A stretch of 64,000 bases of DNA from Flectonema sp. DT1601 (taxonomy: Eukaryota; Euglenozoa; Diplonemea; Diplonemida; Diplonemidae): positions 80,001 through 144,000 of the forward strand of contig OZ025780.1 in assembly GCA_964019425.1 (NCBI GenBank), given 5' to 3'. Within the stretch, counting starts at the first letter, position 1. The number at the start of each line of letters is the position of its first letter. Positions 26,650 to 63,659 of this stretch are shown in pieces. A program made the translations under genes and the position numbers. The notes beneath the pieces are model-generated. The model was given only the letters and a program-made list of their open reading frames with translations, did not search any database and was not told the DNA's origin.

Positions 26650-26889
26650 ATTTTTTTTTTTTTTTGAGTGTTTCACTACTGTGTTTCTCCTTCTTTTTGT
26701 TACTACTATAATTGCTTAGGCGCTGCCCTTACTGGGTGGCCGTTCACTTTTTCGAGACAATGGGGGATGCGACACGGAAACTGATTGCGCTGTGAGGCGC
26801 GGTGCGTACAGCGGGGTTCGAACCGAGGCCGATTGGGTGCGGGGGCACCACCCCATCCACTGCACTATGACGCCCCCGAGGAGAAATTC
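26650..26889 (-). mobile_element. tRNA-derived SINE
   Basis: Read on the minus strand, a sequence with pol III promoter boxes starts after the LINE poly(A): A box-like TAGTGCAGTGGATG, then CTCGGTTCGAACCCCG, a perfect B box (GGTTCGAACC), then about 150 bp of unrelated body, ending in a run of 14 A (T on plus at 26651). This head-body-tail layout is that of a SINE mobilised by LINE machinery. The tRNA part no longer folds fully. Confidence 0.6.
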
Positions 26890-27369
26890 CTTTTTTTTTT
26901 TTTTTTTTTTTGGTTACACTCGTCTGTGCTTCCAGACTCTTTGTTTTTGTTCTTTTCACTTCTTTGTTTTGTCTTTCTTTTATACTTTCTTTTGGTTTAA
27001 GTCTGACAAATTGGAAAACACGGGAAACATAGGTAGGCTCCGCCTGAGGACGTAAGAAGAGCGGCAACGGAAAAATAGATGGTCACGCGTCCTTGAAATT
27101 GGACACATGAAGCTAATTCGGTTACCATTCCTACCATCGATAAGGAAAAACAAAGAATCGAGCATATAACTAGAGCGGTGGTCAAAGACCACTTGAACAG
27201 CCCGAAGGCCTGCCCTCAAGAGAAATTTATAAGGAGAATAGGAGAAGAAGGAGAAAGGAGTATTGGAAGGGACACTGAGACAACACCGAAGGTGATGTGC
27301 AGTTACCCAACCAGGAGATGATTGATAATGATGAAAATACTAAATATTGATAAAACACTTAAATGGCGA

Positions 27370-30300
27370 CTACGTGTCACCTACACAATTCCAAAGTCTC
27401 AGGTTGGATGCTTGTTCCATCCACCTGATCAACATCGCTACTGAAGGAAGCCAGCTGGTGGCAAAGATTGAGCCAAGACTGGCAGGAATGCCGTTGATGA
27501 GGATTAGATCACTTGATCGGTCCCATTTGCCTGTCGATGTAGAAAAGCCAAGGATTTCATATCTGGCTGCATCGAGTTTCTGTGATGGACAGCCTACGAG
27601 TAGGTGGAGTTGGTTGGATGGAGCGCTATGGCAGAATGGACATATGATGGCTTTCCGCCAGTTTTGCATCAGTGGATGACACCCCGTTCTAAAATTCGCA
27701 ATTCTGATTTCATCGCTCCTTTTCATGTCGGGAGGATATTTTATCGCGGCACCTTTGACGGTGTTTTTATAGCAAGTGTAACCAATTCTGTTCCAAATGT
27801 CCTTCGTGATCCCCCTCCTCACTCGGGATTTGTGATAGAAGAAGGATCCTCGGATTGGGATTTGAGGGAGGTATCTGTTGTGAGCCGATTTCTTAGCAAG
27901 TTCATCAACTTCGTCGTGTGCTTCTATCCCCATGTGAGAAGGGATGAATTGAAGATGTACTTTCATACCGCAGTTCCGTAGGTTCTCGAGGATGCCGAGG
28001 GATCTGGTGTTTCTCTGTTTACACCTGCCACCCTTCAACTCGTCCAACAATGATTTTGAGTCGGTATAGATTCTGACTGACTTAGTTAGCCCGTCTTTCT
28101 GTACCTTCCAGTTTAAGTAGTTTGCCGCATTTTTCAAGGCATGTTGCTCAGTTCTGTAGCTGCAATCCGCACGCACTAATCTGGTCGCATGAGCACGTTT
28201 CTTTCCGTCTCGTGACCTAGCAATGAGAGCCGCGCCTGACGCATTCGAAGAGTATGAACCGTCACAGTTGATCACCATGTCCACCGGAGGAAGTGTCGCG
28301 TTGTAGGTAAGGAATTTCTCCCTGTCCACTGCGGGATCAGGGGATTTTGTAAAACCGCAGCTGTTGCTGATTTGAACATTGTCCGAAGCAATCCAAGGTT
28401 TGATAGAGTCAGGTTGAACGATCCCCACACTTTCTAGTTGACCTTCAGAACGGGGAATGAGGCCACCCCAGAAGCTTCGAGGCGATGCGAGTGAGTTGGT
28501 GTCCGGCACCCAGGTCATGGCTTTGTACCTGAAATAGGCAATTTTAGTCTGCTTTTCGATTTGTCTTTTAAACGGTAAGATGTCGGCTTCCCAAAGGAGC
28601 AACTCCCTCGGAGTACATCTGCTGCATCCTGTTACGAGTCTCGCTATTTTTCTCATCTCGAAGTCGATAGCATCCGTTTTATGCTGGTTGAGCAACCAAC
28701 CAAAGCTGTCCAGTGCATAGGAAATCCTCGCTGTCACGTACAAGTTTTTAACCATCTTTAGGGTCTTGTAGTCCAATTCATATGGCTGGAGGCACTGCAG
28801 AAGGGAGATCCCTTTCTTCAGTTCGTCGTGTATTTTCTCTAACTGTTTATCAAACCTGAGCCTGTTATCAATGTAAACACCCAGATATTTCACTGAGTCC
28901 GTGATCGGCAGTAGGAAGGCAATTTTAATTTTCGCTTTGACATTCATCTCGTCGTGGATGTTCAACATCAGTAAGTCTTCTAATTCTTGTTGAGTCCTGA
29001 TGGGTTTCCCCTCTACTTCGAGGATCGTTTCACCACTCAGTAAAGTGGGCCTTGTCGTCGTCGTGTTGATCACGCTGTCTAGATCAAAATAGTCAATATC
29101 TAACGAACGTACTTCCAGTGATTTTGAGAATAAGAGTTCGCGGTCGCTAGTATCAGTCAGGGTTACTTCTTTCGATTGAATATCCATTTTCAGAGCGCAA
29201 GTCTTGGAGACTGAAAGTGCCATGTCATTATCACGGCACCACTTGTCAACGATGTCAAGTATTCGTTGAGCGTTTGAGATTGCTTCGTCCATGGACGAGC
29301 CAAATACTGCACAAGCGGTGTCGTCTGCATACAGTGCGGTCAAAGTCGTTTCCTTCTCTTGTGAGAGAATCTTACACAGATCGTCAACATATATTAAATA
29401 GAGTAGTGGGCCTAAGATTGATCCTTGAGGCACTCCTTTTGACAGCGTACGAAACTTACTGAAATGTCCATTTGCATCAACCCTGACCTTCCTATTGGTT
29501 AGAAAGTCCGTTATCCATCGAACGATGAAGGTTGGGATGCCCATTCTTTGTAGTTTTGAAAGTAAAATTCGATGGTTAATCCTATCGAAGGCTGCTGTGA
29601 AATCGAATGACAAGAAGACTGACCTCCTCCCCTTCGTGTGGTTGTTTACCATGGCGTCCACCAGAATTGTGATTTGTTCGCAGGTATTTCTGCCCCGTCT
29701 GAAGCCAGCTTGAATCGGACTGAGTGCTGAGTTTTCGGTAAGCCAATGCATGAGCCTGTCATACACCAACCTCTCAGCCAGTTTGCCAACAACCGAAGTG
29801 AGTGTGATTGGTCTGTAGCTTTTAATATCGTTCCGCGGTTTGCCCGACTTGAACATCGGTTTGATTAACCCCTGTTTCCAAAGATATGGAACATTGGAGG
29901 ATCTCCACGAAGAATTGATCACCTTTAATAAACAGTCAACTGCCTTCTGAGATAAGTTCTTAAGCATTTCGTTGTGAATACCGTCAGGGCCTGCTGCTTT
30001 GCGAGGCTTCAGGTTTTTAATTGCTGCTGATATCTCGGTATCTGTGAAGTCACAACAGATGTCCAATTCCAAGTCTTCTTTCTTCAATGAAGGGGCTTCG
30101 AGTTTAGCAGCATCCCCATCGGCCACAAAGAGGTCCAGAAATGCTGCAGGTAAATCGTTCTCAGATATATTTGATACGCTGATGTCCTTACCAGCGTCCT
30201 GTTGGAGTTCTTTAATCTTCTTGAAGGCGAAGTTAAAGTTGTTCCCCTTCTTCAGTTGGTCTTTCAGGTGACTGCCTTTTGATTTTAGAGATTCCGGTGA

Positions 30301-31287
30301 AGAGATCTTCCACTTACGTCGGCGCTTGCCCTTAAATAAGATTCTCCTCCGCACGTTCCTCGCAGCTACTTCATGTATTATGTTATTTAATAATCCAACA
30401 TTACCAGTGGCATCATCCGAGAACTTAGCCCTATCAATTCTTCTATCAAGTTGCTGTCTGAAAGCACTCCAGTTTGTAGATTTGAAATCCCAGACAGTTC
30501 GTTTCCTTGCTCCAACTGTTGCTTGAGAGAGGTGAGCCATTGTGTCGAAGATAGCGAGTAGAGGTCGATGATCCGAGTTATGTTTACTGTCTTCATTTAT
30601 GATTGAAAATTCTTCTAATACAATTGATCCTTTAAAGAATATAACGTCAGGTGAGGTACCACCGCCAGGAATGTCGTGTTTGGGCCGAGTTATTTGACCA
30701 GGTCTGTTTGCTACGAGAACGTCATTGCGATCCGCCCAATTAAATAATTCTTTACCAGATTTGGTTGTCCTGGTAGACCAGACGAGGTTGTGTGCGTTGA
30801 AGTCGCCCGCAATAATAGACTTCGTTGTGATCGGAAGATCATCTTCTCTAATGATACACCCAGGGGGAGCGTAAACGTTAATAACATTGACACCACCAAC
30901 ATTCAGCATCATAGCTTCGATACCGCTTGTTCTCGAAAACAATTCTTCATCACTGATTCCTTGTGAGAAGCATCTCTTTGCCATTATTATAATGCCACCA
31001 CCTTTTGTATTTCTGTCCTTCCTATATGTATAATAGCCAGGGTGCGAAATGTGTTCCTTCGACCAGGTTTCCTGTAAGCACAGTACATCCGGCGAGTAGT
31101 GAGAAAGGAGTCTTTGAATATAAGACCCCTTCTGACTTATCGATCTACAGTTCCAGCTCAACACTGAGAGTAACGAATTTTCAGGTCCAGGGTTGCGTTC
31201 AACGTCGCCTGCCAGCAGTAATAAACTTCGGGTCAGTTCTTTTTCAGTTTGAGAGATAGTCGGTGCTGTTACAGTAGTCGGCTTCAC
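27370..31287 (-). CDS. LINE ORF2: 2A-like peptide, AP endonuclease, reverse transcriptase, RNase H, CCHC
   Basis: 1305 residues as written; the frame is in fact open from 31350, directly after the ORF1 stop. GDVERNPGP at residues 27-35 (31183-31209) is a perfect 2A StopGo motif, where ribosomes skip the Gly-Pro bond. Then: exonuclease-endonuclease-phosphatase fold about 40-246 (WNCRS, LQETW, GDFNAHNLVW, NSDHRP); reverse transcriptase about 420-880 with FDFTAAFD near 561 and YADD at 653-656; RNase H about 1005-1135 (NCDGS, TEQH, YTDS, DEVDELA); CPFCH...H...C near 1216-1233. No ATG exists in this frame before codon 102, inside the endonuclease, so normal initiation cannot give an intact enzyme. 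An 80-residue insert with a PDZ-like pattern lies near 725-792. Confidence 0.93.
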   Translation of the reverse strand: MKPTTVTAPTISQTEKELTRSLLLLAGDVERNPGPENSLLSVLSWNCRSISQKGSYIQRLLSHYSPDVLCLQETWSKEHISHPGYYTYRKDRNTKGGGIIIMAKRCFSQGISDEELFSRTSGIEAMMLNVGGVNVINVYAPPGCIIREDDLPITTKSIIAGDFNAHNLVWSTRTTKSGKELFNWADRNDVLVANRPGQITRPKHDIPGGGTSPDVIFFKGSIVLEEFSIINEDSKHNSDHRPLLAIFDTMAHLSQATVGARKRTVWDFKSTNWSAFRQQLDRRIDRAKFSDDATGNVGLLNNIIHEVAARNVRRRILFKGKRRRKWKISSPESLKSKGSHLKDQLKKGNNFNFAFKKIKELQQDAGKDISVSNISENDLPAAFLDLFVADGDAAKLEAPSLKKEDLELDICCDFTDTEISAAIKNLKPRKAAGPDGIHNEMLKNLSQKAVDCLLKVINSSWRSSNVPYLWKQGLIKPMFKSGKPRNDIKSYRPITLTSVVGKLAERLVYDRLMHWLTENSALSPIQAGFRRGRNTCEQITILVDAMVNNHTKGRRSVFLSFDFTAAFDRINHRILLSKLQRMGIPTFIVRWITDFLTNRKVRVDANGHFSKFRTLSKGVPQGSILGPLLYLIYVDDLCKILSQEKETTLTALYADDTACAVFGSSMDEAISNAQRILDIVDKWCRDNDMALSVSKTCALKMDIQSKEVTLTDTSDRELLFSKSLEVRSLDIDYFDLDSVINTTTTRPTLLSGETILEVEGKPIRTQQELEDLLMLNIHDEMNVKAKIKIAFLLPITDSVKYLGVYIDNRLRFDKQLEKIHDELKKGISLLQCLQPYELDYKTLKMVKNLYVTARISYALDSFGWLLNQHKTDAIDFEMRKIARLVTGCSRCTPRELLLWEADILPFKRQIEKQTKIAYFRYKAMTWVPDTNSLASPRSFWGGLIPRSEGQLESVGIVQPDSIKPWIASDNVQISNSCGFTKSPDPAVDREKFLTYNATLPPVDMVINCDGSYSSNASGAALIARSRDGKKRAHATRLVRADCSYRTEQHALKNAANYLNWKVQKDGLTKSVRIYTDSKSLLDELKGGRCKQRNTRSLGILENLRNCGMKVHLQFIPSHMGIEAHDEVDELAKKSAHNRYLPQIPIRGSFFYHKSRVRRGITKDIWNRIGYTCYKNTVKGAAIKYPPDMKRSDEIRIANFRTGCHPLMQNWRKAIICPFCHSAPSNQLHLLVGCPSQKLDAARYEILGFSTSTGKWDRSSDLILINGIPASLGSIFATSWLPSVAMLIRWMEQASNLRLWNCVGDT
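31183..31209 (-). other. 2A-like StopGo site
   Basis: Codes GDVERNPGP, matching the consensus D(V/I)ExNPGP, preceded by the hydrophobic LLLLA stretch that 2A activity needs. In trypanosome L1Tc and ingi elements such a motif also precedes the endonuclease. Confidence 0.88.
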
Positions 31288-31350
31288 CAGAACTTTACTA
31301 TGATGTGCGTCATTTTTAGAATTTGAAGTTGACGGTGTTCGTTTGTCAAG

Positions 31351-32529
31351 TCAGTTTGAATTATCCATTTCCACATCAGTCGTTTCAGTAGTATCGGTTG
31401 GTTCTTCAGCACAGTGTCGCTTCAGATCACCAGATATAACTGGACCCTTGCCCGGGTTGAAGGTCGGCCCCAATTTGACCGGCTTTTCTCTTTTAGTTTC
31501 CATGTTGATTACAAGGTACGCATCTTTACCCATGTCGACGAAGCTTGGTGATGGAACCGATTCAGAGATTGCAATTAACGTTTTGTTGCCTCCCTTATGA
31601 AAACTAGCCACAATTGTGTGACTCCACTTGTATGCGTGCAACAGGTGATCGCTGATCTGTTGCGTCGTGAACTTCTTAATAGCCAGTGATTTAATTATAA
31701 AACGCTGACCAGTCGGCAGTGCGGGTTTCAGAGAATCCCCGAGTGATTCTCTCACTTTTTGAGTAAACCCGGGTTGAACTTTCAGCCCAAAGCACTCTCG
31801 GAACTTCGTGATGTAGAAGCTACCTTTGATTGCTGAAAGAACTGAAAGTTTGCCCAGCACCGCTTTGAAGCCCAAGTCCTTAACGAACTGAACTGTGTTC
31901 CAAGAGTCTTGGCCATTAGACCAAGATGGGTTTCTGATGAATAGATCTCTCTTCTCACTGGAGGTGTCGCTGTTGTTGTATTCCAGAATTTCAGAAATTC
32001 TGAAGTTTGGCACACGGATCGCCATAGATGTGTGCATATCGCATTTTTTAAATCCGAAGGGCGATGTCTTCAGCTCCCACTTTTTAATTAATTCTCTCAC
32101 CTTAGTGGTGAGAGTGCTCTCTGCTGATTTACTCCAGTCTTGTACGAATAGAACTGGGTCTGGCTGTGGTGGCTCGATGGCGTCTTCTCTTGCGGCAGTG
32201 AAATCTTTGCCACAAATCGGGGTGACAAATACCCTACGAATGACGCAGGTTCCGCACTTCTTCACGACTGGAAGTGCGACTGGGACTGTTGTTTTAAACA
32301 GTTTAGACTTTGAGATGGCAGTCCAGTCGCCCTTCGTTCGTGTTTGCTTCAGTGCTTCATAATCAGCCTTTGAGCTGATGAGCACGAGTCCGTCCGCGTT
32401 GTTTTTGGAGGCATCGATTGCTTCTGAGAATTTAAGCGTAGGTGTTGCTTTAGCCCACGCTGCGTGAATGTACCACTCTGGCAGAGTGGTACATTCACGA
32501 GAAATTCCTTGCAAGGATAATTCCCGCAA
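31351..32529 (-). CDS. LINE ORF1 (gag-like, unrecognised)
   Basis: About 392 codons ending in TGA at 31351-31353. The protein is basic and soluble-looking, without CCHC knuckles or RRM that I can see; a Cys cluster CGTCVIRRVFVTPICGKDF lies near residue 92. The C-terminus is acidic (EETTDVEMDNSN-like). There is no ATG near the 5' end: the frame opens after a TAA at 32560 and the first ATG codon is far downstream, so this copy is either 5' truncated or starts at a non-AUG codon. The first 20 codons overlap a perfect hairpin (32463-32499). The same frame continues through TGA into ORF2. Confidence 0.7.
   Translation of the reverse strand: MRELSLQGISRECTTLPEWYIHAAWAKATPTLKFSEAIDASKNNADGLVLISSKADYEALKQTRTKGDWTAISKSKLFKTTVPVALPVVKKCGTCVIRRVFVTPICGKDFTAAREDAIEPPQPDPVLFVQDWSKSAESTLTTKVRELIKKWELKTSPFGFKKCDMHTSMAIRVPNFRISEILEYNNSDTSSEKRDLFIRNPSWSNGQDSWNTVQFVKDLGFKAVLGKLSVLSAIKGSFYITKFRECFGLKVQPGFTQKVRESLGDSLKPALPTGQRFIIKSLAIKKFTTQQISDHLLHAYKWSHTIVASFHKGGNKTLIAISESVPSPSFVDMGKDAYLVINMETKREKPVKLGPTFNPGKGPVISGDLKRHCAEEPTDTTETTDVEMDNSN
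32463..32499. repeat. Perfect 17-bp inverted repeat with 3-nt loop
   Basis: CGTGAATGTACCACTCT, GGC, then the exact reverse complement. It sits at the 5' edge of LINE ORF1. Could be a fold-back made when reverse transcription ended, or an RNA hairpin. Confidence 0.9.
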
Positions 32530-32565: not shown

Positions 32566-32650
32566 GACGCTGGTTGTCCACTGGTATGATTGTGGATTTG
32601 CATTCGCTAGGCTGCAGGTTCGAGTCCTGGTGGAGGATTTTTTTTTTAAT
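32566..32650 (+). repeat. tRNA-like sequence followed by T run
   Basis: Plus strand has TGGTTGTCCACTGGTATGAT (A box-like, D-arm-like) and GCAGGTTCGAGTCCTGG (perfect B box, T-arm), then a T9 pol III-type terminator. The acceptor strands do not pair and the anticodon stem is poor, so it is a tRNA relic or SINE head, not a tRNA gene. Confidence 0.5.
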
Positions 32651-34219: not shown

Positions 34220-34763
34220 CTTTGATTAGTGTAGTCTGAAGTTAGTGCCCTCCTGTTCAACCTGTTGATTTGTTTAAGAAAATTCATTTTTGAACGACAC
34301 AACACCCAACACACGAACCTTACTTTGACACGAAAAGGAAACGACAAAAAAAAAAAAAAAAAAAAAAAAAAAAGCCCAGTCTTAGACTGCGCAATGTGAA
34401 CTAAAAAATTCAGCAAAAAAGAAAAAAGAAAAACATTCTTAAAAAAAAGGGGAAGTTGATGCGGCTACGGCTTTGATTCAGCTGCGGTACTTCAGTTAAT
34501 CGTTTCCCTCAATCGCAAGTTCTCATATCGGTCAACAACCAACAATCAGAGAAGGTGCAAAATACTTGGGGAGTCTTTCAACAAAGGATTCCACAGAACG
34601 AAAAGAAAAAAAACGAGTGAAAAAGAAGAAAGAAAAGAAAAAGAAAAAAAGGGGAAAGGATAGTGCTGAGTGTATCCTGATCTACTCGTTGGACTATAAT
34701 TCAAGTCGCGGCATTCGCGCACTCAGGTTTGCAGATTTCATCCAGAGAAAGACTACTCACATT

Positions 34764-35743
34764 CTAGTTAGCAAAGTCATCATCGTCATCCGGAAGTGCG
34801 ATGGCAGCCGCAGCCTTGGCCTGCTCTTCCATCTCAGCGACCTTCTCAGCGGAGAGGATGACAACTGGCTCCTGTTATTTTATTGAATTGGATTGGTGAA
34901 AAAACAAACGGAAAGAACAACGAGAAACTAAAACAGTAAAAAACAACATACCACCAAAGAGGCTTCCGCAGTAAACGCGAGGTTGCTGTCATTCGCCAAC
35001 TTCTTCGCCAACCACAAGAACGGCTTCTCGAAGTTGTAGTTCGACTTGGCGGAGATGTCGTAGTACTGAAGAGACTTCTTTCTGTGGAAGGTGATCTGTC
35101 TTGCCTTCACAGTTCTCTCCATAACGTCTACCTTGTTACCTACGAGAACAAGAGGAATGTTGTCGCACACTCTGACAACGTCTCTGTGCCAGTTTGGAAC
35201 GTTCTTGTAGGTCTGACGGGAGGTAACGTCAAACATTATAATTCCACAAGTTCCCTGAATGTAGTATCCGTCACTGTGGGTGTTTTGTTTTGAAATAAAA
35301 TATGAAATGAGAAGACGCGAGACATCATTCAGACTACGAAATGATAAAAACATTTCCAACTGAATAAGAAAGTTTTTAAATAACAACATGTGATTTCATT
35401 ACTTCGATCAGAACCACACATAAAATAATTATAAGAAATAATCATACCGAAGACCTCCGTACTTCTCCTGTCCGGCGGTGTCCCAAACGTTGAAACAAAT
35501 AACACCGTGAGTGGTCTGGAACTTAAGTGGGTGGACCTGTTTTGTGTGTTTAGTTATTGCTCGCCTTAGAATACGATGTTTGACTGCTGTACAAAAGAAA
35601 TGATAAATACAAACCTCAACACCAACAGTTGGGATGTACTTCTTCTCAAATTCTCCGCTCTGATGACGCTTTACGAATGTGGTCTTACCTGTACCACCGT
35701 CTCCAACGAGTACGAGTTTGAAGGTGTGCATTGGAGCAGACAT
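34764..35743 (-). CDS. RAN: Ran GTPase, copy A
   Basis: Four exons (35615-35743, 35448-35536, 34952-35273, 34764-34871), all GT-AG, give 215 residues. Ran is the nuclear transport and spindle GTPase. Visible: P-loop [10 protein letters not shown], effector region [16 protein letters not shown], switch [41 protein letters not shown], and the acidic tail after [17 protein letters not shown] ending in DDDDDFAN rather than the DEDDDL end of animals. Conserved Gln of WDTAGQEK is kept. It is duplicated in tandem at 36363. The ATG follows TTATTCAG by about 17 nt. Confidence 0.95.
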
Positions 35744-36362
35744 AGTTTCCAATATGACCTGAATAAGGGTTTGAGAAAATTAAATTAAAATAATGTTCAG
35801 AAGATAATAATCTTTTGATCTGACTGATGTTCTTCTGTAGATCTAGTTGAGAGAGGAAATGAAAAATAATAAAATTATTTAATCGAAGTTATCAACAGAT
35901 AAATACACCGATGTTTACTTTGACACGAAAAAGAAACAAAGGGAAGGGGGGGAAACGGGAGAAAGAAAAATAAAACACTTTTAAAAAAAAAAAAGGCGGG
36001 GGGGGAGTTGATGCAACTTTGGTTTTTGATTTCTATTTTTATTTTTTTCCTCGCCGCAGTTCTTTTGTTTTTTTTTCATTTCCCTCAGCTACACTTTTCG
36101 TTTTCTTTTTTTCTAATTCTCATATCGGTCAACAACCAACAATCAGAGAAGGTGCAAAATACTTGGGGAGTCTTTCAACAAAGGATTCCACAGAACGAAA
36201 AGAAAAAAAACGAGTGAAAAAGAAGAAAGAAAAGAAGAAAAAAAAAAAGGGGGAAAGGATAGTGCTGAGTGTATCCTGATCTACTCGTTGGACTATAATT
36301 CAAGTCGCGGCATTCGCGCACTCAGGTTTGCAGATTTCATCCAGAGAAAGACTACTCACATT

Positions 36363-37342
36363 CTAGTTAGCAAAGTCATCATCGTCATCTGGAAGTGCGA
36401 TGGCAGCCGCAGCCTTGGCCTGCTCTTCCATCTCAGCGACCTTCTCAGCGGAGAGGATGACAACTGGCTCCTGTTATTTTATTGAATTGGATTGGTGAAA
36501 AAACAAACGGAAAGAACAACGAGAAACTAAAACAGTAAAAAACAACATACCACCAAAGAGGCTTCCGCAGTAAACGCGAGGTTGCTGTCATTCGCCAACT
36601 TCTTCGCCAACCACAAGAACGGCTTCTCGAAGTTGTAGTTCGACTTGGCGGAGATGTCGTAGTACTGAAGAGACTTCTTTCTGTGGAAGGTGATCTGTCT
36701 TGCCTTCACAGTTCTCTCCATAACGTCTACCTTGTTACCTACGAGAACAAGAGGAATGTTGTCGCACACTCTGACAACGTCTCTGTGCCAGTTTGGAACG
36801 TTCTTGTAGGTCTGACGGGAGGTAACGTCAAACATTATAATTCCACAAGTTCCCTGAATGTAGTATCCGTCACTGTGGGTGTTTTGTTTATATTCGTTCA
36901 TCAGACTTGTTCAGCTACAAGACTTGTTCAGCTACAAGACTTGTTCAGCTACAAGACTTGTTCAGCTACAAGACTTGTTCAGCTACAAGACTAACTTCCT
37001 ATTCTAAGGAGGGAAATAATAAAATAATTATAAGAAATAATCATACCGAAGACCTCCGTACTTCTCCTGTCCGGCGGTGTCCCAAACGTTGAAACAAATA
37101 ACACCGTGAGTGGTCTGGAACTTAAGTGGGTGGACCTGTTTTGTGTGTTTAGTTATTGCTCGCCTTAGAATACGATGTTTGACTGCTGTACAAAAGAAAT
37201 GATAAATACAAACCTCAACACCAACAGTTGGGATGTACTTCTTCTCAAATTCTCCGCTCTGATGACGCTTTACGAATGTGGTCTTACCTGTACCACCGTC
37301 TCCAACGAGTACGAGTTTGAAGGTGTGCATTGGAGCAGACAT
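36363..37342 (-). CDS. RAN: Ran GTPase, copy B
   Basis: Four exons (37214-37342, 37047-37135, 36551-36872, 36363-36470), each exactly 1599 bp from its counterpart in copy A. By eye the coding parts differ at one synonymous site (Pro CCG/CCA in the last exon), so both encode the same 215-residue protein. Introns 1 and 3 match copy A; intron 2 shares only its ends, with its middle replaced by a 17-bp repeat array, and still is 174 nt long. The region upstream of the ATG also differs, so the two copies could be expressed differently. Confidence 0.94.
36904..36988. repeat. Five copies of a 17-bp repeat in intron 2 of Ran copy B
   Basis: Unit GACTTGTTCAGCTACAA repeated five times without visible change. 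Absent from copy A. Confidence 0.95.
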
Positions 37343-38795
37343 ATTTAATTAACTGGCCACTGATGTTAAAATAATTAAAGAGGCCGACTAGTCGCAATTT
37401 TGATTAAGAACTCAAGTGATGGTAAGCAAATCAACTTCCTCTAATTCATATCATTGTAAAGAGTAGATTATGATTAAGAATGAAAATAATAGAATATAAC
37501 ATAAACAATAAACAACTATTCATAGCAACCCAACCCTTGCGGGAGTTCTCATGGCGGAGGGGAAATTTTTTAAAAAAACAAATACTTTGGAAAAAGAAAA
37601 TAGTCAAAAGTAAAAACATCAGATTGTTTTTTTTTTTTTTTTTTTTTTTGTTTAAAGTGCAGTGTATTTTGAGTCGCCCGAGTCATGGAGATTTTCTCCC
37701 CACATATGATGTGCCCTGAAAGACGTAGCTGACACACAGGCTGACAAGATTACAGAGGTCAGAATAGATCGACAGTTAATAAGATTTACAGGCACACGTT
37801 GGCTTTATTTGTCAGAGGTAAGTCATCCTGACTTGACAACCGAGATAGTGCTGTCACCATATCGTTCATAGCAGGTGGTGTCTTCAGGAACTTCAAATTA
37901 GATAATATTCGTCAGCTTCAACTGATGTCAGGAGTACAACAGTTACACTGAGTACCCCTCACACTGCTGAGAGTATCACCCGTCTGGTTACACTGAGTAC
38001 CCCTCACACTGCTGAGAGTATCACCCGTCTGACAGGAGGGAGAGAGTTGTGATGTTTAACATCTGCTCGAACAGCAACAGATTCTTCTTTTTTTTTTTTT
38101 TTTTTTTAAAAAGGCCAAAAATCCCCATAAAACCAGAATAATAAAACACATTCCTTGTTATGATCTCCGAATAGAACCAGTTCATTCCGAAGAGTAGTAT
38201 CACAACACACAAGTCTCTACTTGTTGACTGCGATCAGAGAGGCCGACTAAGGGACATTTAAGTGTGTTGTGAGTAGTGTTGTGTGGCGGTGGTGGTGGTG
38301 GTGAATATTTACTAATATTTTTTTTAACTTTTTTTTTTTTTTTTTTTTTTTCCCCGAAAGGAATATAACATAACTCACCATAACAAAACAAAGAAGAGAA
38401 AAGGAAAGGGGGGGGGGAAAAAAAGGGGGGAAATACGCGAAAAGTGAATAAAAAACAATCTGCCTGACATATAATTATAAATTGGTAATAATTTTCATTT
38501 TTTTTTTTTACAAAAGTGTATACAAAAAATAAAGCATTTTCTTTTTTTTTTACACGACTAATGCTATGAAAGTATCGGATATTTTCACTGGTAGAAATGA
38601 CACCATAAAATGGAACTCGAATGTCAAAAATAAAAAATGTTTTTTTGACAATGGACACGCAATTAATAAAAAGGTCTTCTGATTGAGAAAACCTTACCAC
38701 TCTGTACATGTTGTTGATCACAAACAGCAATACCAGAATCACTTAGTCTGTCACTGAACTGAACTGAGTAGCTTCTGACGAGTGAATACGAACAG
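37343..38795. other. Intergenic spacer with a 45-bp duplicate
   Basis: No gene accepted. Two exact 45-bp direct repeats lie at 37942-37986 and 37987-38031. T runs near 37628, 38090 and 38335, and a G/A-rich stretch near 38400. Minus-strand frames here are low-complexity. Confidence 0.5.
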
Positions 38796-41735: not shown

Positions 41736-42827
41736 ATGAAGACCAACACCACAACAGATAGTAGTGCAGCAACTGTTATGAAGACCAACACCACAACAGA
41801 TAGTAGTGCAGCAACTGTTATGAAGACCAACATCACAACAGATAGTAGTGCAGCAACTGTTATGAAGACCAACATCACAACAGATAGTAGTGCAGCAACT
41901 GTTATGAAGACCAACATCACAACAGATAGTAGTGCAGCAACTGTTATGAAGACCAACACCACAACAGATAGTAGTGCAGCAACTGTTATGAAGACCAACA
42001 TCACAACAGATAGTAGTGCAGCAACTGTTATGAAGACCAACACCACAACAGATAGTAGTGCAGCAACTGTTATGAAGACCAACACCACAACAGATAGTAG
42101 TGCAGCAACTGTTATGAAGACCAACACCACAACAGATAGTAGTGCAGCAACTGTTATGAAGACCAACATCACAACAGATAGTAGTGCAGCAACTGTTATG
42201 AAGACCAACACCACAACAGATAGTAGTGCAGCAACTGTTATGAAGACCAACATCACAACAGATAGTAGTGCAGCAACTGTTATGAAGACCAACACCACAA
42301 CAGATAGTAGTGCAGCAACTGTTATGAAGACCAACACCACAACAGATAGTAGTGCAGCAACTGTTATGAAGACCAACACCACAACAGATAGTAGTGCAGC
42401 AACTGTTATGAAGACCAACACCACAACAGATAGTAGTGCAGCAACTGTTATGAAGACCAACACCACAACAGATAGTAGTGCAGCAACTGTTATGAAGACC
42501 AACATCACAACAGATAGTAGTGCAGCAACTGTTATGAAGACCAACACCACAACAGATAGTAGTGCAGCAACTGTTATGAAGACCAACACCACAACAGATA
42601 GTAGTGCAGCAACTGTTATGAAGACCAACATCACAACAGATAGTAGTGCAGCAACTGTTATGAAGACCAACACCACAACAGATAGTAGTGCAGCAACTGT
42701 TATGAAGACCAACATCACAACAGATAGTAGTGCAGCAACTGTTATGAAGACCAACATCACAACAGATAGTAGTGCAGCAACTGTTATGAAGACCAACATC
42801 ACAACAGATAGTAGTGCAGCAACTGTT
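41736..42827. repeat. 26-copy 42-bp minisatellite, open on both strands
   Basis: Unit of 42 bp starting ATGAAGACCAACAYCACAAC. Because 42 is divisible by three, frames stay open: plus strand reads MKTN(T/I)TTDSSAATV 26 times, minus strand reads ITVAALLSVV(M/V)LVF. The units differ essentially at one position (C/T). The minus frame, in the direction of the neighbouring genes, would be a very hydrophobic 400-residue repeat; the plus frame would be polar. Neither has a known family or obvious flanking coding sequence, so I classify it as a repeat. Confidence 0.95.
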
Positions 42828-53425: not shown

Positions 53426-54680
53426 GTGAACGCACTGATTGTTAGGTATTGTATCGATCGACTATGTCGATCACTTTCTATTTTCCGTCCTGGTCAAGAC
53501 GCTAAACTGATTGTTTTTTTTTCTTCAAAATTAATAAAAAAGAATATAAAAAAATACAAAAAAAAGAATAAACAATGTTATCATTGTTTTTTTTTATCGT
53601 TCGACTTTGTCGACTAATTTCTATTTTCCGTTTCTTTTCTTTAAAAAATAAATAAAAAGAATTTAAAATAAAAAAAAAGAATAAACAATGTTATCATTGT
53701 TTTTTTATCGATCGACTATGTCGATCACTTTCTATTTTCCGTCCTGGTCAAGACGCTAAACTGATTGTTTTTTTTTCAAAATTAATAAAAAAGAATATAA
53801 AAAAAATAAAAAAAAAAGAATAAACAATGTTATCATTGTTTTTTTTTTTATCGTTCGACTTTGTTGACTAATTTCTATTTTCCGTTTTTTTTCTTTTTAA
53901 AAAATAAATAAAAAGAATTTAAAAAAAAAAAAAGAATAAACAATGTTATCATTGTTTTTTTTATCGATCGACTATGTCGATTACTTTCTATTTTCCGTCC
54001 TGGTCAAGACGCCAAACTGATTGTTTTTTTTTTTCAAAATTAATAAAAAAGAATAGAATAAAAAAAAAAATAAAAAAATAGAATAAACAATGTTATCATT
54101 GGTTTTTTTTTTTTTATCGTTCGACTTTGTTGACTATTTTCTATTTTCCATTTTTTTCTTTAAAAAATAAATAAAAAGAATTTAAAATAAAAAAAAAAAA
54201 AGAATAAACAATATTATCATTGTTTTTTTTATCGATCGACTATGTCGATCACTTTCTATTTTCCGTCCTGGTCAAGACGCTAAACTGATTGTTTTTTTTT
54301 TTTCAAAATTAATAAAAAAGAATATAAAAAAAATACAAAAAAAAGAATAAACAATGTTATCATTGTTTTTTTTTATCGTTCGACTTTGTCGACTAATTTC
54401 TATTTTCCGTTTTTTTTCTTTAAAAAATAAATAAAAAGAATTTAAAATAAAAAAAAAGAATAAACAATGTTATCATTGTTTTCTTATCGATCGACTATGT
54501 CAATCACTTTCTATTTTCCGTCCTGGTCAAGACGCTAAACTGATTGTTTTTTTTTTCAAAATTAATAAAAAAGAATATTAAAAAAAATACAAAAAAAAAG
54601 AATAAACAATGTTATCATTGTTTTTTTATCGTTCGACTTTGTCGACTAATTTCTATTTTCCGTTTTTTTTTCTTTAACCC
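53426..54680 (+). repeat. Dimeric satellite array, forward orientation
   Basis: Five dimers of about 257 bp. Subunit A holds ATCGATCGACTATGTCGATC and CTGGTCAAGACGCTAAACTG; subunit B holds TCGTTCGACTTTGTCGAC. Both carry ACAATGTTATCATTG, a short near-palindrome, and long A/T runs. Confidence 0.9.
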
Positions 54681-60299: not shown

Positions 60300-60545
60300 A
60301 AAGACCCCTTTACCCAAAAAAAAAAAAAAAAAAAGAAAGAATAGAAAAAAAAAAATATGAAGAGGAAATAATCAAACATGAAAAAAAAAAAAAAACAAAA
60401 TATAAATAAAAAACGTTGTATGAAAAAGGAAAAAAAGAAAAAAAAAAGACCAGAAAAGGAAAGAGAAAATGAAAAGGTATAATATTATTGTGGGGATATG
60501 AGGATAGCAGGGAGATGCTCTTTTTTTTTTTTTTTTTTTTTTTTT
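60300..60545. other. A-rich spacer
   Basis: Long A-rich stretches with a T run near 60522; no feature. Confidence 0.4.
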
Positions 60546-60659
60546 ATTTATTATTTAAAAAAAGGAAACAATCAGTTTAGCGTCTCGATCAGGACGGAAA
60601 ATAGAAATTAATCGACATAGTCGATCGATAGAAAAAAAACAATGATAACATTGTTTATT

Positions 60660-60693
<34 letters not shown>

Positions 60694-60947
60694 CTTTTAA
60701 TTATTTTAAAGAAAAAACAATCAGTTTAGCGTCTTGACCAGGACGGAAAATAGAAAGTAATCGACATAGTCGATCGATAAAAAAAAAACAATGATAACAT
60801 TGTTTATTCCTTTTTTTTTTTTTTTTTTTTTATTCTTTTCATTTATTTTTAAAGAAAAAACAATCAGTTTAGCGTCCTGACCAGGACGGAAAATTGAAAG
60901 TGATCGACATAGTCGATCGATAAAAAAACAATGATAACATTGATTAA

Positions 60948-60980
<33 letters not shown>

Positions 60981-61769
60981 TTTTAATTATTTTTTAAAGA
61001 AAAAACAATCAGTTTAGCGTCTTGACCAGGACGGAAAATAGAAAGTGATCGACATAGTCGATCGATAAAAAACAATGATAACATTGTTTATTCTTTTTTT
61101 TTTTTTTTTTTTTTTTTTTAATCCTTTTTATTATTTTAAAGAAAAAACAATCAGTTTAGCGTCTTGACCAGGACGGAAAATAGAAAGTGATCGACATAGT
61201 CGATCGATAAAAAAACAATGATAACATTGTTTATTCTTTTTTTTTTTTTTTTTTTTTAAATTCTTTTTATTTATTTTTAAAGAAAAAAAAACGGAAAATA
61301 AAAATCAGTCGACAAAGTCGAACGATAAAAAAAAAACAATGATAACATTGTTTATTCTTTTTGTTTTTGTTTTTTTTTATATTCTTTTTTATTAATTTTG
61401 AAAAAAAAACAATCAGTTTAGCGTCTTGACCAGGACGGAAAATAGAAAGTAATCGACATAGTCGATCGATGAAAAAAAAACAATGATAACATTGTTTATT
61501 CTTTTTTTTTTTTTTTTTTTTTTAATTCTTTTTATTTATTTTTTAAAAAGAAAAAAAAACGGAAAATAGAAATTAGTCAACAAAGTCGAACAATAAAAAA
61601 AAAAAAACAATGATAACATTGTTTATTCTTTTTTTTTTATTTTTTTTTTATATTCTTTTTTATTAATTTTCAAAAAAAAACAATCAGTTTAGCGTCTTGA
61701 CCAGGACGGAAAATAGAAAGTGATCGACATAGTCGATCGATAAAAAAAAACAATGATAACATTGTTTAT

Positions 61770-61802
<33 letters not shown>

Positions 61803-63420
61803 CCTTTTTATTATTTTTAAAGAAAAAACAATCAGTTTAGCGTCTTGACCAGGACGAAAAATAGAAAGTGATCGACATAGTCGATCGATAAAAAAACAAT
61901 GATAACATTGTTTATTCTTTTTTTTTTTTTTTTTTTTCTAAATCCTTCTTATTATTTTTTAAAGAAAAAACAATCAGTTTAGCGTCTTGACCAGGACGGA
62001 AAATAGAAAGTAATCGACATAGTCGATCGATAAAATAAAAACAATGATAACATTGTTTATTCCTTTTTTCTTTTTTTTTTTATTCTTTTTATTTATTTTT
62101 AAAGAAAAAACAATCAGTTTAGCGTCCTGACCAGGACGAAAATTAGAAAGTGATCGACATAGTCGATCGATAAAAAAACAATGATAACATTGTTTATTCT
62201 TTTTTTTTTGTTTTTTTTTTTTTTATTCTTTTTATTTATTTTTTAAAGAAAAAACAATCAGTTTAGCGTCTTGACCAGGACGGAAAATAGAAATTAGTCG
62301 ACAAAGTCGATCGATAACAAAACAATGATAACATTGTTTATTCTTTTTTTTTTTTTTTTTTTTTTTATTCTTTTTATTTATTTTTTAAAGAAAAAACAAT
62401 CAGTTTAGCGTCCTGACCAGGACGGAAAATAGAAAGTAATCGACATAGTCGATCGATAAAAAAAACAATGATAACATTGTTTAATCTTTTTTTTTTTTTT
62501 TTTTTTTATTCTTTTTATTTATTTAGAAAAAACAATCAGTTTAGCGTCTTGACCAGGACGGAAAATAGAAATTAGTCGACAAAGTCGATCGATAAAAAAA
62601 CAATGATAACATTGTTTATTCTTTTTTTTTTTTTTTTTTTTTAAATTCTTTTTATTTATTTTTTAAGAAAAAAAAGAAAATAGAAATTAGTCGACAAAGT
62701 CGAACGATAAAAAAACAATGATAACATTGTTTATTCTTTTTTTTATTTTTTTTTTTTATATTCTTTTTTATTAATTTTGAAAAAAAAAAACAATCAGTTT
62801 AGCGTCTTGACCAGGACGGAAAATAGAAAGTAATCGACATAGTCGATCGATAAAAAAACAATGATAACATTGTTTATTCTTTTTTTTTTTTTTTTTTTTT
62901 TTTAAATTCTTTTTATTTATTTTTTAAGAAAAAAAAACGGAAAATAGAAATTAGTCGACAAAGTCGAACGATAAAAAAACAATGATAACATTGTTTATTC
63001 TTTTTTTTATTTTTTTTTTTTTATATTCTTTTTTATTAATTTTGAAAAAAAAAAAACAATCAGTTTAGCGTCTTGACCAGGACGGAAAATAGAAAGTAAT
63101 CGACATAGTCGATCGATAAAAAAACAATGATAACATTGTTTATTCTTTTTTTTTTTTTTTTTTTTTTAAATTCTTTTTATTCATTTTTTAAGAAAAAAAA
63201 ACGGAAAATAGAAATTAGTCGACAAAGTCGAACGATAAAAAAACAATGATAACATTGTTTATTCTTTTTTTTATTTTTTTTTTTTTATATTCTTTTTTAT
63301 TAATTTTGGGAAAAAAAAAAACAATCAGTTTAGCGTCTTGACCAGGACAGAAAATAGAAAGTAATCGACATAGTCGATCGATAAAAATACAATGATAACA
63401 TTGTTTAATCTTTTATAATT
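60546..63420 (-). repeat. Satellite array, inverted relative to 53.4-54.7 kb
   Basis: About 21 units of roughly 140 bp. Most are type A (AATCAGTTTAGCGTCTTGAC; ATCGACATAGTCGATCGAT), some type B (GTCGACAAAGTCGAACG), and a few A/B hybrids near 62290 and 62560. Each ends in ACAATGATAACATTG and a T run of 15-28. Confidence 0.92.
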
Positions 63421-63659
63421 TTTTATTTTTTTTTTTGTTTTAAAAAAAAAAAAAAAAACAAGCGGAATTGATCATAATGGGTGGTAGGGGTTGTTATAAC
63501 TTCGTTTGAAAATTCTTCTTTTTTGATTTCTTTTTTTTTTTCTTTTTACAGGAGTTAAGATCACTGTCAGGAGACAACACATTAACAAGAGCAGCAAGCA
63601 GAGTTGACACTATCAATTCAAATTTGAAATACCGGGAATTAATTTACAAGGAGGTATCT

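Follow-up and report, generated by a model that had tools for sequence, protein, structure and literature searches.

A conserved in-frame UGA and 2A tract between the two open reading frames of diplonemid LINEs, and a probable readthrough route to ORF2

How the RNA of a two-gene long interspersed nuclear element (LINE) yields little protein from its second open reading frame (ORF2) is a long-standing question, for which termination-reinitiation is an answer given in a review (PMC5972666). A LINE on the minus strand of a 64,000-nucleotide stretch of Flectonema sp. DT1601 (contig OZ025780.1, positions 80,001 to 144,000; hereafter the window, with coordinates counted from its first letter) offers another answer, legible in the sequence. 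In this insertion (26893..32498), ORF1 ends in TGA and ORF2 continues in the same frame behind a 2A (StopGo) motif. The locus raises the question of how an ORF2 that lies behind a stop codon, and is opened by no ATG, is translated. Our best model, which we regard as highly probable from the sequences compared below, is that UGA readthrough would set the dose of ORF2 and StopGo would free the enzyme.

The ORF1-ORF2 junction in the window and across the genome

All element features given below lie on the minus strand. The ORF1 stop, which is the proposed readthrough site, is a TGA at 31351..31353 followed by C (TGA CTTGAC). Behind it, the ORF2 frame runs uninterrupted from 31350 up to a TAG at 27370-27372, comprising 1326 codons with no other TGA. 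The first-pass annotation had described this shared frame, a GDVERNPGP motif near the ORF2 start, and the lack of an ORF2 ATG before codon 102, inside the endonuclease. The sequence agrees on all of these: GDVERNPGP begins at residue 48 after the TGA, and ATG does not appear in frame until residue 123, corresponding to codon 102 counted from a GTG at 31287. The distance from the TGA to this GTG is 21 codons, one fewer than had been stated. The spacer from the TGA to the 2A aspartate (31207..31350) consists of 48 open codons without an in-frame ATG, and contains a CTG (31288-31290) flanked by a -3 purine and a +4 G. The 2A core, DVERNPG|P (31183..31206), is of the type found in six other groups of elements; it is preceded by RSLLLLAG, and the window element thus has both D[V/I]ExNPGP and the upstream tract of about 25 amino acids (aa) that characterize 2A. 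The predicted skip lies between G (31186-31188) and P (31183-31185), and the ORF2 enzyme released by skipping would start with this proline and span 27373..31185.

As proof, the single window copy is weak, since its open spacer is not striking for the local base composition (the probability of an open frame by chance is 0.26 for 21 codons and 0.05 for 47), and the copy is 5'-truncated inside ORF1. Codon usage in the 21-codon stretch carried no information on its coding status. Therefore, other copies are needed to make the case, and we searched the host genome (89.5 Mb). Among the best 36 of 951 candidates scored, 20 were full-length copies with 99-100% identity, and all but one of these (19) were free of internal stops. 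The ORF2 frame comprised 1326 codons in all 20, indicating that the stop lies at the same place in each. The 2A pattern GAYGTNGARNNNAAYCCNGGNCC gave 137 coded matches in the genome and its reversed control gave none. After seven duplicate loci (L031, L032, L037, L046, L048, L055 and L058) had been dropped, the junction was read at 55 distinct loci, comprising 24 of group A (that of the window element), 14 of B, two of C, four of D1, two of D2, five of D3, three of D4, and L039.

These seven related groups share one layout, ORF1-UGA-C-[17-48 open codons]-DVExNPGP-ORF2, in a single frame. The TGA is followed by C in 53 of the 55 loci, including all 24 of group A, and the two exceptions are both decayed: L039 has a TAG stop and an ORF2 broken after 106 codons, and L040 has a broken frame. 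The spacers between the TGA and the 2A aspartate have five lengths (48 codons in A, 28 in B, 17 in C, 18 in D1 and D2, 20 in D3 and D4), and are in frame in 53/53 TGA-C loci. The bases behind the TGA are CTTGAC in A (CTCGAC in one locus), CTAGAT in B, CTAGAA in C, CTTGAC or CTTGAT in D1, CATGAT in D2, CCGGCG in D3 and CGGCAC in D4. The first-pass annotation had named three observations that could overturn its reading. Two of them, a sense codon at the TGA and a frameshift between the ORFs, were found in no near-intact locus read, the broken frame of L040 being that of a decayed copy. The third, an ATG for ORF2, was found in three of the 24 group-A loci (L020, L023 and L056) and not in the remainder of that group. 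Among all TGA-C loci, four have an ATG between the stop and the 2A core and 49 have none.

Copies that were not read were counted by searching the genome with short junction-crossing stretches, in which TGA was read as W, and tallying the stops in each match. The position of the TGA in these copies is taken from the match, the counts are lower bounds because the best candidates alone were scored, and matches that did not cross the junction were left out. The junction TGA was present in 127/127 crossing copies, and 126 had no other stop in the matched stretch. Group A contributed 24 (23 with one TGA and one with two), which are the same loci as those read; at least 39/39 came from B, at least 7/7 from C, 27/27 from D1 and D2 together, and 15/15 from each of D3 and D4. 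Decayed rows with extra stops or low identity were set aside in the searches with A (C18:472497, C81:475119 and C42:716429), D1/D2 (C25:154343, C70:650676 and C57:17250) and D4 (C6:442191, C5:13895 and C5:14331), each of them still having at least one TGA in the match. Several copies were kept although not whole, namely C65:701401 (L022), in which another TGA precedes the 2A aspartate by 7 codons, the fragments C7:20101 and C6:419914 in the B/C count, and C63 in the D1/D2 count, with a TAA further on. A conserved, putatively leaky stop with an open frame behind it, the pattern of programmed readthrough, is thus present in every counted copy and, as TGA-C, in nearly every locus read.

The substitution pattern indicates that ORF2 is under purifying selection. 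Over 400 codons, the fraction of sites differing between D1 and D2 was 0.53 for synonymous and 0.05 for nonsynonymous sites, and the values between B1 and B2 were 0.22 and 0.04; the figure for A versus L021 was spoilt by an indel and not used. In the spacer, the six pairs among D1-D4 showed 7-12.5 synonymous versus 0-2.5 nonsynonymous differences over 16 codons, and the conservation as protein begins almost at the stop. Since the D spacer is largely 2A tract, this constraint reveals translation, and not by itself the route by which ribosomes arrive. B1 and B1b differed by 9 synonymous and 2 nonsynonymous changes, and the constraint was weaker between B1 and B2 (5.8 versus 9.2; ratio of nonsynonymous to synonymous rates, dN/dS, 0.45). 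The purifying selection behind the TGA that had been named as a sign of readthrough is therefore seen in the D pairs and in B1/B1b, less so in B1/B2, and not in the comparison of A with A2 given below. The sequences themselves show this layout, conserved across the seven groups, together with selection on ORF2 and on the D spacer.

How ORF2 might be translated

In the model we favor, ORF1 would be translated from its own start (absent in the truncated window copy), and most ribosomes would terminate at the UGA, made leaky by the following C, to yield the ORF1 protein. A minority would decode the UGA as sense and continue through the codons that form or contain the 2A tract, where the Gly-Pro bond of NPG|P would be skipped and ORF1 released with a short tail. 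ORF2 would then be made as a separate endonuclease/reverse transcriptase protein beginning with proline. Readthrough would keep the ORF2:ORF1 ratio low, and 2A would avoid an ORF1-ORF2 fusion. The in-frame TGA-2A layout across the seven groups thus argues for the single ORF1-2A-ORF2 unit with a leaky TGA that the first-pass annotation had put forward.

Known readthrough contexts occur in several groups. UGA followed by CUA or CGG is a type II readthrough signal, often with a downstream stem-loop (PMC11166343), and UGA-CUAG has been tested in reporters (PMC4132726). Readthrough in mammalian reporters was 1.5% for UGA-CUA by itself and about 31% for the OPRL1 context (PMC4132726), and C after UGA is stated to promote readthrough generally (PMC12233894). 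Groups B and C have UGA-CUAG, and D4 has UGA-CGG. Behind the latter, a hairpin is predicted (L052:1446-1525) that, in an 80-nt window, has a z of -4.3 and beats 200/200 dinucleotide shuffles; it is weaker in a 163-nt window, with a z of -2.0 and 9/200 shuffles equally strong.

The rival that survives best, to which we assign a low probability, is that ORF1 terminates normally and ribosomes reinitiate, or initiate leakily, at a non-AUG spacer codon to make ORF2, the shared frame being coincidental. The CTG with its -3 purine and +4 G is indeed common to groups A and A2 (in group A, it precedes the 2A aspartate by 28 codons), an ATG occurs close to this position in the EukProt protein P0004, three group-A copies have an ATG at a neighboring codon, and the A spacer appears free of constraint upstream of the CTG. 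This well-placed CTG makes non-AUG initiation a possibility for group A alone. In C, D3 and D4, however, a scan for CTG, GTG, TTG, ACG and ATH (AAG and AGG were left out) found no such codon farther than 5 codons upstream of the 2A aspartate, and none of the scanned codons is common across the groups as a candidate start. From the stop to the skip site (spacer plus DVExNPG), C has 24 residues, D1 and D2 have 25, and D3 and D4 have 27, so that in C and D1-D4 nearly everything behind the stop is one 2A tract. Since such a tract measures about 25 aa (PMC11512398), an internal start of this kind has no room in C, D3 and D4. Initiation within the spacer also fits poorly with five spacer lengths that are all in frame, with TGA-C at nearly all loci, and with a D spacer conserved as protein nearly from the stop.

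A second rival, which we consider quite improbable, is that ORF2 starts at a spacer ATG that the window copy has lost. The ATGs of L020, L023 and L056, and that of P0004, are what this explanation would lead one to expect. However, 49 of the 53 TGA-C loci have no ATG there, the ATG of the fourth exception, L047, is just 3 codons from the 2A aspartate, and many near-identical copies without an ATG keep ORF2 open. L020, L023 and L056 represent an older group-A sublineage, in which TGA-C is retained.

Two further explanations have next to no probability. A null mutation that recently created the TGA in a single copy or lineage, as the first-pass annotation had allowed, is compatible with the window copy taken alone, but we reject it because the TGA is conserved in all 24 group-A loci and in every counted crossing copy of the six other groups, ORF1 homologues with 47-53% identity terminate at the same alignment place, and no fused ORF1-ORF2 protein was found among 2519 candidates. 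Four separate ORF1 proteins were found. The other explanation, in which ORF1-2A-ORF2 is an ordinary ORF because the nuclear code reads UGA as sense or because splicing or editing takes it out, agrees with the in-frame junction of the counted copies, but is disfavored by three TGA-terminated genes in the window (GARS, an RRM protein, and an EF-hand/pectate-lyase-like ORF), which indicate that TGA is a genuine stop in the host, by the lack of any other TGA in the 1326 codons of ORF2, and by the EukProt proteins P0124 (ORF1) and P0003 (ORF2), which share a Trinity gene name, are listed as separate ORFs, and likely come from one species.

Several observations weigh against UGA readthrough coupled to StopGo. 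Readthrough, skipping and their efficiency are what we infer from the sequences. The junction was read at 55 of the 137 2A places, and the seven groups are related and do not represent independent origins. The A spacer differs from that of A2 by 0 synonymous and 7 nonsynonymous changes, and from that of L021 by 3 and 5 (dN/dS 0.59), so that no clear purifying selection is visible in the A spacer. A spacer ATG stands 26 codons before the 2A aspartate in L020, L023 and L056, and P0004 begins at an ATG 24 codons before NVEVNPGP. The contexts of A and D1 (UGA-CUU), D2 (CAU) and D3 (CCG) lie outside the strongest known ones. The stop of group E, a relative described below, is also UGA-C, and one of the seven TGA-ending ORFs in the window has UGA-C, with the CTT of group A; UGA-C alone is therefore not diagnostic. 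No stem-loop was detected behind the group-A stop (z +0.7), and among ten representatives compared with mononucleotide shuffles, D4 alone stood out, the other nine having no predicted downstream structure. Taken together, these counter-points leave unexplained the identity of the TGA, the shared frame, and the near-absence of a start codon in the loci read.

Relatives, encoded proteins and genomic setting

One relative apparently does without 2A and, judging from its sequence, couples ORF2 through an AUGA stop-start overlap. In the stretches that match, group E is 43-52% identical to D3 in ORF1 and 42-44% in ORF2, where similarity begins past the 2A. At each of the 11 places with both matches, ORF1 and ORF2 are offset by a number not divisible by three (the remainder is 2 at ten places and 1 at one partial pair). 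At the junction L063 (one read, 291 bases), ORF1 ends in ..KSQ-TGA and an ATG overlapping the stop (CAATGACTC) opens the ORF2 frame; no NPGP occurs in this single junction stretch.

The genes flanking the junction appear to have been exchanged. The A/B-type and D-type ORF1 proteins show no similarity by direct BLASTP (best E 0.66; D1 part of 481 aa). The ORF1 of group C (L061 and L062) is A/B-type, being 31% identical to P0124 (E about 1e-52), and its ORF2, over the compared stretch, is 67% identical to that of D1 and 69-70% to D4, versus 48% to A and 43% to B. The D3 (L033) ORF1 is 62% identical to that of D1, and the D4 ORF1 is 35% identical to that of D3; in the first 507 residues of ORF2, D3 and D1 match over the first 58 alone, with the 2A core included. 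The simplest reading of these sequences is that at least two ORF exchanges, in C and in D3, took place around the conserved UGA-C/2A junction.

In a reverse transcriptase tree of 119 rows (11 labelled), which includes almost no named references, the family, a candidate for the Ingi/Vingi-like clade, joins the 2A-bearing proteins P0006-P0009 with 96/96 support. In these nearest ORF2 neighbors, the 2A lies 5-68 residues from the called start, and the gene calls for P0007 and P0008 include 22 and 25 residues ahead of the 2A aspartate. P0002 and P0005 lack 2A as called, and the matching B2 (L029) and D4 loci have 2A just upstream. We also noted 2A cores 58-245 residues from the called start in other endonuclease-reverse transcriptase (EN-RT) proteins (P0009, P0014, P0025, P0041, P0047 and P0082).

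The window ORF2 encodes an apurinic/apyrimidinic (AP)-type endonuclease domain (30559..31161; PF03372 and PF14529, together residues 64-264) and a reverse transcriptase domain (29164..29832; PF00078, residues 507-729, E 3.3e-36). All three Pfam matches are above cut-off in one ORF, which identifies an APE-type (EN-RT) LINE. An RNase H-like region (approximately 27886..28275) corresponds by alignment to the stretch of P0003 and P0004 that matches PF00075; Pfam gave no RNase H match in the window ORF2 protein itself. An insertion behind the reverse transcriptase core (28969-29037) contains a PDZ-like stretch, SGETILEVEGKPIRTQQELEDLL, and its PDZ_6 matches are sub-threshold (E 0.16 for the window piece, 0.21 for P0004). 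The window ORF1 (31354..32481), equivalent to codons 99-474, is identical over its 376 aa to the full-length ORF1 protein P0121 (474 aa, starting with M, 18 cluster members), and the first 98 aa are missing. The predicted ORF1 fold has low confidence (predicted local distance difference test, pLDDT, 54.8), and a PDB search with it returned nothing at E<=0.001; that of the reverse transcriptase segment has modest confidence (pLDDT 63.5). A viral contig collection gave no match to the search pattern, and none of the 14 stretches that matched a pattern in a genome contig collection encodes a relative.

The insertion bears all the marks of target-primed integration: a 12-bp target-site duplication, AAGGAATTTCTC, at 32499..32510 (5' copy) and 26881..26892 (3' copy), a 3' poly-A, and 5' truncation inside ORF1. 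A BLAST self-hit revealed a perfect palindrome of 17+1+17 nt at the truncated 5' end (32464..32498), built around the short palindrome CTCTGCCAGAG, which reads as snap-back priming of the complementary DNA during insertion. By eye, tRNA-like stretches with a B-box-like GGTTCGA flank the insertion on both sides (~26810-26880 and 32576-32640), and are possibly short interspersed nuclear elements; ARAGORN called no tRNA in the whole window, these stretches included, and an Rfam scan of the window gave no match. Elsewhere in the window, two related long tandem arrays lie in opposite orientation (53449-54677 and 60515-63461, the second AT-rich with a GC of about 0.25), an 84-bp tandem array (41736-42827, ~99% alike) has open frames of ~400 codons on both strands, and a duplication with 94% identity (34520-35747 and 36117-37346) includes a fragment named, from reading the sequence, as a Ran-like GTPase.

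Comparison with known systems

2A sequences are reportedly present (Heras 2006 and Odon 2013) in L1Tc and ingi of trypanosomes and in the Rex1, Crack, L2, CR1 and Ingi clades of animals, and 2A is reported by Odon to be linked to elements with one ORF. Like these APE-type elements without long terminal repeats (non-LTR elements), those described here have a DVExNPGP 2A tract ahead of an EN-RT enzyme; unlike them, they keep a full ORF1 in frame, with UGA-C separating it from the 2A stretch. The first-pass annotation had suggested that a stop plus 2A between two LINE ORFs would be a new layout. A literature search of limited reach, which excluded the main 2A-LINE papers, returned no report of UGA readthrough plus 2A as a route to LINE ORF2. 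The components are known singly, as 2A LINEs, UGA readthrough and readthrough gag-pol, and their pairing looks new for LINEs. Zorro3, considered as a possible readthrough LINE, is not a precedent, as its ORF2 requires its first ATG (PMC1965478).

Among stop signals, those of B and C (UGA-CUAG) and D4 (UGA-CGG plus the predicted hairpin) resemble the type II UGA signals of plant viruses, OPRL1 and MDH1, among others (PMC11166343 and PMC4132726), whereas A and D1 (CUU), D2 (CAU) and D3 (CCG) have other UGA-CNN contexts, described as ostensibly less leaky (PMC11166343). Termination-reinitiation, as described for the silkworm SART1 stop-start overlap and mammalian L1 (PMC5972666), likewise couples ORF2 to ORF1 and has its counterpart in the AUGA of group E; groups A-D differ in having no overlapping start codon, an in-frame ORF2, and 2A. 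A single genome thus holds a natural comparison of relatives with the readthrough layout and 2A versus a relative with AUGA. If our model is true, 2A would have a clear job in LINEs, that of separating the two proteins of one readthrough unit, and LINE dose would be tied to the termination efficiency of the host.

A further parallel is a retroviral one, in which Pol of Moloney murine leukemia virus (MLV) is freed by a protease. The gag and enzyme ORFs of MLV also lie in one frame with one stop, and the enzyme is made by readthrough, but the MLV signal is UAG with a pseudoknot (PMC5009743), whereas a non-LTR element here has UGA-C and 2A. It is probable, with somewhat less assurance than we attach to readthrough and StopGo themselves, that a portable cassette of UGA-C readthrough with StopGo directly behind it is common to several LINE lineages within a single eukaryote; this cassette would replace the ORF2 start codon, set the ORF1:ORF2 ratio, free the enzyme, and be kept through the exchange of flanking genes: a non-LTR counterpart of gag-pol, with 2A in place of the protease.

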